Shown: positions 11,357 through 19,447 of the stretch, piece after piece
How positions within the stretch are numbered: position 1 is the first letter of the stretch
How the letters are laid out: every line of letters begins with the position of its first letter
Assembly: GCA_903862645.1 (NCBI GenBank)
Contig: CAIOZF010000098.1
Span: 1-64,000 of the forward strand
Length of the DNA: 64,000 nt
Direction of reading: 5' to 3'
DNA from: an uncultured Gammaproteobacteria bacterium
Lineage (GTDB): Bacteria; Pseudomonadota; Gammaproteobacteria; Pseudomonadales; Pseudohongiellaceae
Made by a program: the position numbers and the translations under genes
Notes under the pieces: generated by a model
Databases searched by the model: none
What the model was told of the DNA's origin: nothing
Seen by the model: only the letters and a program-made list of their open reading frames with translations

Positions 11357-11629
11357 TCACGATTTATAACTGTCGCCAAAACGTGCCTGCAGACGGCGCA
11401 TCCCGCCGAGCCAGCGCTCATAATCCGTCGCTTTGCGTTGCATATAGGTGAGCACTTCGGGATGCGGCAGCACCAAAAAGTGCTCCTGTTCCAAGGCCTC
11501 AATGACCGTCTGTGCCAGCGCAGCGGGTTCCAGCATGCCGTCGACCCCCGCCACACTGGAGCCACGCCCAGTCATCTGGGAGCGCACCGCCTGCGGACAC
11601 AACACCGACACCTTGTCTTTGATCTGCAT
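11357..11629 (-). pseudogene. Internally deleted short-chain dehydrogenase (SDR) remnant
   Basis: An 90-aa frame with a proper start (AGGGGG before ATG 11629). It begins MQIKDKV, the usual first residues of an SDR before the TGxxxGxG motif. It then jumps straight to VSVLCPQAVRSQMTG and a C-terminal end (ATDYERWLGGMRRLQ) typical of SDRs. The whole Rossmann fold, glycine motif and YxxxK active site are missing, about 160-170 residues. The join at K-V suggests recombination at a short AAGGTG microhomology (inference). It cannot be a working dehydrogenase. Confidence 0.75.
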
Positions 11630-11690
11630 GAGTCCCCCTAATTTCTTAATTGTTCTTGTTGCCGTTCGGGGTGGCAGGCATGGGGAATCA

Positions 11691-11757
11691 GGACACGCCG
11701 TGAATACGTCCATGTAGGCTCGCTTTCGCCATCCACGGATGGGTTCACGGCGTGTCC
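11691..11757. repeat. 67-bp palindromic intergenic element
   Basis: Perfect 14-bp terminal inverted arms (GGACACGCCGTGAA / TTCACGGCGTGTCC) enclose 39 nt that can pair partly. It sits between two decayed genes. The layout and sequence resemble abundant REP/BIME-like intergenic repeats of marine gammaproteobacteria; that resemblance is from memory. Only one copy is seen in the window. Confidence 0.7.
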
Positions 11758-11819
11758 AACCCAGCGCTAACCGTCACACAGACCGTGATACGGAGTACTG
11801 ACAATATAAAAAAACAACA

Positions 11820-12482
11820 TCAGAGCAGCGAGTTCAACCTGTCGCGGATGATAGCCTCCGCCTCGGCGACAAGGCGCGCCAGCAGACCAGACTCCATGTT
11901 CCAGATCTCCAGACTCGAAAAGTTCTCTGCGGCGCACACCCTTGACGAGCGGCTCAATGTCCTCGAAATGCGTCTCCCCCGGCTGCGCCGCAATGGCCAG
12001 AACCTGCTCCGCGTCACCAGAAAGCGCGTTCCCATATTGATGCCATCTGCCCCCATTGCCAATGCCGCCGCGAGTCCGCGACCATCGGCGAAGCCACCGG
12101 AGGCGAGAAACGGGATACTTAAACGGCGTGCCGCGAGTGGCAATAAAATCAGATTGGTGACGTCATCCTCGCAAGGATGACCGGCGGTCTCGACTATGCG
12201 GACGCCAGACGCAACGATGGCATCCACGTACTCGTCATAAGGAACGGATTTAATGGTCGGCAGGATGGTAAGGTTCAGGGCGAAGGGCTTGTCCGTCATG
12301 TTACGGCAGCGAGCGATCTCTGCACGCAATGCCTCTGGATCGGACTGGGTCAACGCCGTCAGTGTGCCCAATGCCCCGGCATTGGAAACTGCGGCGGCCA
12401 ACTCCGCACGACCGACCCATTGCATGCCACCCTGCACAATTGGATGTTCGATCCCAAGCATCTGCGTCACTCGCGTTTTCAT
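11820..12482 (-). pseudogene. Decayed nitronate monooxygenase / FMN-dependent oxidoreductase
   Basis: The N-terminus ([31 protein letters not shown]) and middle ([49 protein letters not shown]) are clear NMO family, usually about 320 aa; this frame has 220. Three lesions are visible. First, VETAG joins directly to HPCEDD, dropping about 35 residues. Second, after FLVT the frame shifts, and family sequence ([25 protein letters not shown]) continues in another frame. Third, it then returns to the first frame at [15 protein letters not shown]. The start context is otherwise normal. Confidence 0.8.
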
Positions 12483-12695
12483 GAATCCCCTAGATTCTCT
12501 GATACAAAAAATTGGATTTTAGACACCCGCCGCGCAGCACTCACAGTGGAATCGCCTCAGCCTGTCGCAGGATGGAATTACTCGGTAGACAGAGGCAATT
12601 CAGCCCGTGAACGGACAGTTGGGTGTGGCGTCATAATTGGACAATTGTGCTATACTTGCCAAGCTAAAAAACTCACTATCAAGGGAGACATAAAA

Positions 12696-18152: not shown

Positions 18153-18215
18153 CGATCTTCTCTTTTCGACCTGTTCTTGTTGTTCCAGCGGTGTTCGCCG
18201 CGACTGCGGAGAGGA

Positions 18216-18463
18216 TCAGTCCGCCTGCCAGGGCTCTTCGACAGCGCCCCTGGGACTTTTGAAAAGTTCAGCAAGAAATTGGCAATGATCCGTTGCGCCC
18301 CGTCGTTGGCCAGCTGGTTGTAAACCGTTCCCTGCCCATGATCATTCGCTGCCGGGTTCGTGAACGCGTGCGAGGCTGCAGCTCGGTGGCCGTCTCGTCC
18401 GAGGCGAAATGGCACTGCCAGTGGCGTGTCACCATCCCGGCAGTCGATGTACTCGGTCTTCAA
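18216..18463 (-). pseudogene. Dienelactone hydrolase family remnant with the middle deleted
   Basis: The frame opens at TTG 18463 with KTEYIDCRDGDTPL, the usual DLH N-terminus. After about 20 residues it passes to SHAFTNPAANDHG and TVYNQLANDGAQR, the conserved C-terminal His region (HAFTNP). The true C-terminus (QFLAELFKSP) then continues in another frame to TGA 18216-18218. The nucleophile Cys and Asp regions, about 160 residues, are absent. The track ORF (18149-18463) runs on out of frame into the symporter start. Confidence 0.68.
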
Positions 18464-18478
18464 CCAGTCTCCGGCAGT

Positions 18479-18958
18479 TCAGAGCTTCGCCAGTATTGCG
18501 TCCGCAGCGCTCTCTACGATGCCACCGGCAGGTTCAACTGCCAGATGGGTCACCACACCTTTGTCGACGATCATGGCGTAGCGCTTGCTACGGATACCCA
18601 TGCCGAATCCGGTGGCATCCAGCTCCAACCCGACTGCCTTGGTGAAGACACCGTTGCCGTCGGCCAGCATGATCAATTCCTCGGCGTTCTGGGACTTGCC
18701 CCAGGCGCCCATCACAAAAGCATCGTTGACAGCCAGGCAGACGATAGAATCCACGCCCTTCGCCTTGATCTTGTCTGCCAGCACTACATATCCAGGAAGA
18801 TGTGTCACTGTACAGCCGGGCGTAAACGCGCCTGGCACAGCAAACAACACCACTTTTTTGCCGGCAAAGATGGCCTCGGAAGTGATGTCTTGCGGGCCTT
18901 TCTCGCCCATGATTTTGAACGTGGTGGCTGGAATCTTGTCGCCGATTGCAATAGTCAT
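18479..18958 (-). CDS. Peroxiredoxin, Prx5/AhpE-like
   Basis: 159 aa, thioredoxin fold. The peroxidatic Cys49 is in VPGAFTPGCT (P-x-x-x-T/S-x-x-C), with a second Cys74 in SIVCLAVNDAFVM. It belongs to the Prx5 group (TIAIGDKIPATTF start, GFGMGIRSKRYAMIVDKGVV). It reduces H2O2 and organic peroxides using glutathione/glutaredoxin or thioredoxin in the cytosol. The family normally has PVPGAFTPTCS; here Ala and Gly replace the flanking residues. Monocistronic. Confidence 0.92.
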   Translation of the reverse strand: MTIAIGDKIPATTFKIMGEKGPQDITSEAIFAGKKVVLFAVPGAFTPGCTVTHLPGYVVLADKIKAKGVDSIVCLAVNDAFVMGAWGKSQNAEELIMLADGNGVFTKAVGLELDATGFGMGIRSKRYAMIVDKGVVTHLAVEPAGGIVESAADAILAKL

Positions 18959-19186
18959 GTCTGTGCTCCTCGTGTTGAATTTTTAATAGCTCGGATTGAT
19001 GCAGAGCAGGCGGGGCAGGCTGTTCTGGCAGAAGCGCCGATGGTAGCAAAATTCCGTTGAAGATACACAGGCCTGCGGACTGTCGACAACAACCGGGCAG
19101 AACAGCAGTGACCACTGCCGGGCAGCCTGGAATGGAGATAAGATGGCGGCCCGATTCACAAACACGCCAGCGCGCGAACACCATCC

Positions 19187-19447
19187 ATGGACACACTTTT
19201 CTTCTGGGCCTCCAAACTGCTATGGGCGCTCATCTCGCCAGACAGCCTGCTGTTAATCCTGCTGCTGTGCAGCGCGGTGCTGTTGCATCTGCAGCCCAAT
19301 GGCTGGCTGTTCAAAGCAGGGCGGCGCCTTCTGACCCTGACGTGCGTGCTGGCACTGCTGGTGGCGTATTACCTGAGTGGCAGGACGGATCGTCTGCTGC
19401 CGGATGGGTCGACGCATTGCCTGACTGACAGCATCAGTGCCCGATGA
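19187..19447 (+). pseudogene. YdcF/ElyC-like (DUF218) remnant, both ends joined
   Basis: 86-aa frame. Residues 1-55 (MDTLFFWASKLLWALISPDS and a Leu-rich membrane span) match the N-terminus of the MDTLFFW-type DUF218/YdcF family. VAYYLSGRTDRLLPDG matches its extreme C-terminus, normally about 180 residues further on. The whole DUF218 domain (VLGG, PRA, YE-N motifs) is missing. The tail then runs out of frame and overlaps the protease gene end. An alternative is a short membrane protein, but the two recognisable ends argue for deletion. Confidence 0.65.

Follow-up and report, generated by a model that had tools for sequence, protein, structure and literature searches.

The window analysed here is a 64,000-nt stretch of contig C98, part of a 3.10-Mb assembly of 254 contigs (95% complete). 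Between positions 11,357 and 19,447 it carries short open reading frames related to four protein families, namely SDR, nitronate monooxygenase (NMO/FabK-like), dienelactone hydrolase (DLH) and YdcF/ElyC-like (DUF218) proteins. Intact neighbours, used as controls, include an FKBP-type isomerase (10783..11274, minus strand; dN/dS 0.047) and a DASS-type transporter (16422..18152, minus strand; dN/dS 0.044). We compared the window with 13 genomes of the same genus, and its Nudix gene at 14.9 kb was matched in 12 of the 13. From 10.75 to 64 kb the window and the G013 genome were collinear (80.5% nucleotide identity over 51 kb). The completeness-corrected genome size was approximately 3.26 Mb for the window's MAG compared with 3.8 Mb for the sister genomes G011 and G013. 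Outside the TonB-dependent receptor gene the window was the outgroup to G009 and G013, with G005 and G010 further out, and in the Nudix tree G011 joined G009 and G013.

Several other features of this comparison were recorded. The TonB-dependent receptor gene (12696-14822) yielded a tree at odds with its neighbour genes, in which G013 and G011 grouped with G005 (dN 0.035) and not with G009 and the window; this conflict suggests a putative allele replacement by recombination. The impression that the window and G009 form a sister pair came from this gene only and was rejected on the placement given by the other genes. The G013 genome contains an extra AAA_14/DUF4143 ATPase gene (L018:9574-10782) between the peroxiredoxin and YdcF genes, which is absent in the window, G009 and G005. 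At 26191-26549 the window has two pairs of long imperfect inverted repeats (83 and 44 nt, approximately 80%); the equivalent site in G013 contains a further ~650 bp of related sequence, with the 11-bp repeat TGATGGTTTTA at the join. A 186-aa frame without a Pfam match (42023-42583) is present in the window and G005, and is absent in G013 due to a 456-bp deletion.

The missing blocks in the four short frames were placed by pairwise and three-way alignment with G013 and G005. The intact G013 proteins comprise 261 aa (SDR), 323 aa (NMO), 251 aa (DLH) and 279 aa (YdcF/ElyC), with matches to adh_short, NMO, DLH and DUF218, respectively. Up to eight sister genomes have full-length or near-full-length copies at the corresponding position, and the clean blocks held by the sisters are missing only in the window. 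The SDR remnant (11357..11629, minus strand) fuses approximately 6 N-terminal codons to the C-terminal ~85 codons across a 513-bp in-frame deletion (join at ~11608-11616), and the lost piece includes the Rossmann/YxxxK core. The full 261-aa SDR gene is present in G013, G011, G009 and G005 and near-full in G001, G003, G007 and G012; an apparent deletion in G010 was discarded as an N gap in that assembly. The NMO remnant (11820..12482, minus strand) is a 220-aa open frame with deletions of 50, 118 and 141 bp (joins at 11877/11878, 12012/12013 and 12178/12179). The 118-bp and 50-bp deletions are mutually compensating, and the three sum to -309 bp with the frame restored. The DLH remnant (18215..18463, minus strand) retains approximately 30 N-terminal and 40-50 C-terminal codons; it has lost 508 bp at 18371, including the nucleophile region, and carries a 1-bp insertion at 18417 and a TTG start instead of ATG. 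The YdcF/ElyC-like remnant (19187..19447, plus strand) joins the N-terminal 60 codons to approximately 20 C-terminal codons through a 588-bp in-frame deletion at 19366 that removed the whole DUF218 domain, and a further ~34 bp was lost at 19420.

A sequence-only reading of this DNA had proposed that all four frames keep both ends of their families while the catalytic core is gone. The alignments bear this out in that each is an internal-deletion remnant, but the NMO case is milder than the others, with about two thirds of the gene left. We also identified two losses beyond those four. A CheW remnant lies just beyond them, at 20.87-21.07 kb (20874..21074, plus strand); its start and N-terminal part are lost (345 bp), codons 110-154 at the C-terminal end are left, and it has a further 22-bp deletion and a 7-bp insertion. 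At 39.8-39.9 kb (site 39780..40025, minus strand) a HAMP-GGDEF-EAL gene encoding 797 aa in G013 is reduced to approximately 104 bp, with losses of 288 bp and about 4 kb relative to G013. No second intact copy of NMO, DLH, ElyC or CheW, the four genes searched, was found in the window's genome.

Substitutions between the window and G013 were assigned to ancestral codon positions. The changes at positions 1/2/3 numbered 23/7/84 in the NMO pieces and 8/6/30 in the main SDR piece, and because they fall mainly at ancestral third positions these deletions are recent. The bias persisted in an NMO segment that is now read in another frame (2/3/15), indicating that the constraint predates the deletions. 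The dN/dS of NMO and SDR was 0.01-0.08 (0.012-0.076), as in intact neighbours (0.025-0.114), at a dS of approximately 1. Judged from these substitution patterns, constraint on NMO and SDR lasted until shortly before the deletions, which by our own estimate date to roughly the final tenth of the branch leading to this lineage. The DLH and CheW remnants look older and more decayed, with changes of 16/15/28 and 12/12/29, respectively, in addition to their small insertions and deletions. Relaxed constraint in the leftover pieces is thus suggested for DLH and CheW, and is not visible in NMO and SDR, where the deletions are too recent.

The low dN/dS could also be taken as a sign that the short frames are kept, either because they encode new small proteins or because their translation protects downstream operon genes from polarity. 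The NMO-SDR-FKBP and Prx-DLH-DASS genes form same-strand strings, the SDR and ElyC deletions are in-frame, the NMO deletions restore the frame, and the end of the DLH frame overlaps the ATG of DASS. However, the low dN/dS belongs to the ancestral frame, including the NMO segment that has since changed frame, which argues against the selection for leftover microproteins raised by the sequence-only reading. The NMO remnant in G009 is out of frame, the DLH remnant has further shifts and the CheW remnant lacks a start. A bias towards in-frame deletions was considered and judged not significant (approximately 6 of 10 deletions by our own count). Sister genomes carry full-length genes or different fragments, and none was found to share the same short forms. 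Retention of the frames as functional products is therefore very unlikely. The net in-frame state of SDR, ElyC and NMO prompts a related but weak idea, that operon genes die by in-frame internal deletions since stops or frameshifts would be polar on FKBP and other needed downstream genes. If true, frame-preserving deletions or frame-restoring second deletions would be confined to upstream operon genes. We regard this as improbable, given that the G009 NMO remnant is out of frame and that DLH has shifted frame several times.

Some of the same genes have been lost elsewhere in the genus. In G009 the middle of the NMO gene was lost independently through two deletions, one large and one of 90 bp, accompanied by a 1-bp frameshift. 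This genome groups with G013 and G011, whose NMO is intact. For DLH, G004 retains an N-terminal piece, G008 a C-terminal piece and G006 a gene with a stop, and no DLH is present at the G010 locus. Proteins with a CheW domain are absent in 11 of the 14 genomes, including that of the window (where only the remnant exists), compared with 7-10 matches in each of G005, G011 and G013. On this gene content, the window's genome appears to have lost chemotaxis signalling, and NMO, DLH and CheW are apparently genes that the genus repeatedly does without.

The extent of gene loss was examined in an ORF-level survey in both directions, scoring genes intact in G013 against the window's genome and the reverse. 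The survey covered the window and contigs C3 and C8 (~150 kb) with contig edges excluded; contig C4 had no usable outgroup. Losses or truncations in the window's lineage comprised SDR, NMO, DLH, ElyC, CheW, GGDEF-EAL, a GGDEF/DTW stretch and a DUF3307 gene. Each involved a deletion of 50 bp or more, and no gene killed by a stop or small frameshift alone was found in this lineage across the ~150 kb, in line with the earlier view that deletions dominate over scattered stops. In G013 the same survey identified a single clean loss of a gene and a probable frameshift; 8-10 genes were broken in the window's lineage compared with 2 in G013 (P = 0.04-0.11). Affected genes made up 5 of ~13 at 11.3-21.1 kb compared with 4 of ~134 elsewhere (Fisher P = 2.5e-4, for a region chosen post hoc). 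Except at its edge, contig C3 (~46 genes) contained no broken genes; thus the loss process is uneven. A uniform process does not account for the clustering of five losses among 13 genes within 10 kb.

This clustering of several clean joins within 10 kb of a fragmented MAG, two of them bearing short homologies of the kind seen in amplification chimeras, raises the question of an assembly or amplification artefact in which blocks were dropped via chimeric reads or strain collapse. Against this, five genes account for every large coding deletion at 11.3-21.1 kb and the intact genes between them have been spared, DLH and CheW show extra decay, G009 independently displays the same kind of NMO remnant, and no intact copy lies on another contig. 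Since the deletions target genes some of which sisters have also lost or let decay, an artefact is unlikely, and we assign it only a very small chance.

Homology at the joins was measured in G013 as the longest stretch of identity that touches the breakpoints, and was tested against random breakpoints. The SDR join has AAGGTG, corresponding to a 6-bp ACTTTG in G013 (P = 0.004), and the 141-bp NMO deletion has the 8-bp tract GCCCGGCG, which contains GCCGG (P = 0.0005). The ElyC join has 4 bp of homology (P = 0.03) and the other joins of these remnants 0-2 bp. The two microhomologies pointed out from the letters are therefore located at real joins, but most joins have only 0-4 bp, and microhomology was rejected as a general mechanism. 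Ku was absent in all 14 genomes, whereas RecC and MutS were above the cut-off in all 10 genomes examined and intact in that of the window. Neither Ku end joining, which was rejected, nor loss of these genes thus explains the deletions. The excess of broken genes over G013 is the observation that would fit a lineage-specific recombination or repair defect that raises the deletion rate, as the sequence-only reading had offered. Among the three families searched (MutS, RecC and Ku) no mismatch repair, RecBCD or end-joining gene is lost relative to the sisters, only two joins have notable homology, and the interior of C3 is unbroken; such a defect has next to no likelihood.

We conclude, with a probability of roughly 85%, that these are dispensable genes in the state of pseudogenes under removal, in a reductive loss dominated by internal deletions. 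The conclusion draws on the deletions themselves, their restriction to the window's lineage and to a few genes, the intact orthologues in sisters, the lack of a second copy of NMO, DLH, ElyC or CheW, the destroyed functional domains, the recent dates of NMO and SDR and the independent losses in relatives, and it agrees with the deletion-biased erosion envisaged earlier. Several genes would have lost their selective value in this lineage, after which illegitimate recombination may have excised blocks of 50-600 bp from the dead genes, sometimes between direct repeats of 6-8 bp and mostly with little homology. Both ends would survive because deletions reaching into the tightly packed conserved neighbours are presumably purged, while those inside a dead gene are tolerated. 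Three observations count against this conclusion: all five genes lost approximately 30-75% of their length, the three large deletions in NMO precede visible substitution decay, and the losses cluster more than a uniform process would produce.

A deletional bias and the rapid extinction of bacterial pseudogenes have reportedly been described in 2001 (Mira) and 2009 (Kuo and Ochman). The remnants resemble such cases in being young, lineage-restricted, placed between conserved neighbours and deleted before substitutions build up. Kuo and Ochman (2010; PMC2916853) likewise found that deletion quickly removes young pseudogenes in bacteria, but most of the pseudogenes in their Salmonella genomes had just one lesion, in many cases a point mutation or the deletion of no more than 20% of the ORF. 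In contrast, deletions here span 50-600 bp and about 30-75% of a gene, and one gene has three. This excess suggests a mildly unusual pattern, in a small sample and on a much longer branch. As is generally known for reductive evolution in free-living lineages and early symbionts, the losses concern chemotaxis, c-di-GMP signalling and metabolism, and the genome is smaller than those of close sisters; unlike in such genomes, GC content is steady at approximately 0.55-0.61 and the tested repair genes are intact.

For annotation, the remnants are a warning that short frames resembling a family at both ends may not be real small proteins. The case is one of ordinary bacterial gene discarding, unusually well preserved. 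With intact sisters, recent NMO and SDR deletions, older DLH and CheW remnants and parallel losses, it provides a dated snapshot of gene loss in 10 kb, and the locus is useful for weighing large deletions against point mutations in gene killing outside model pathogens.
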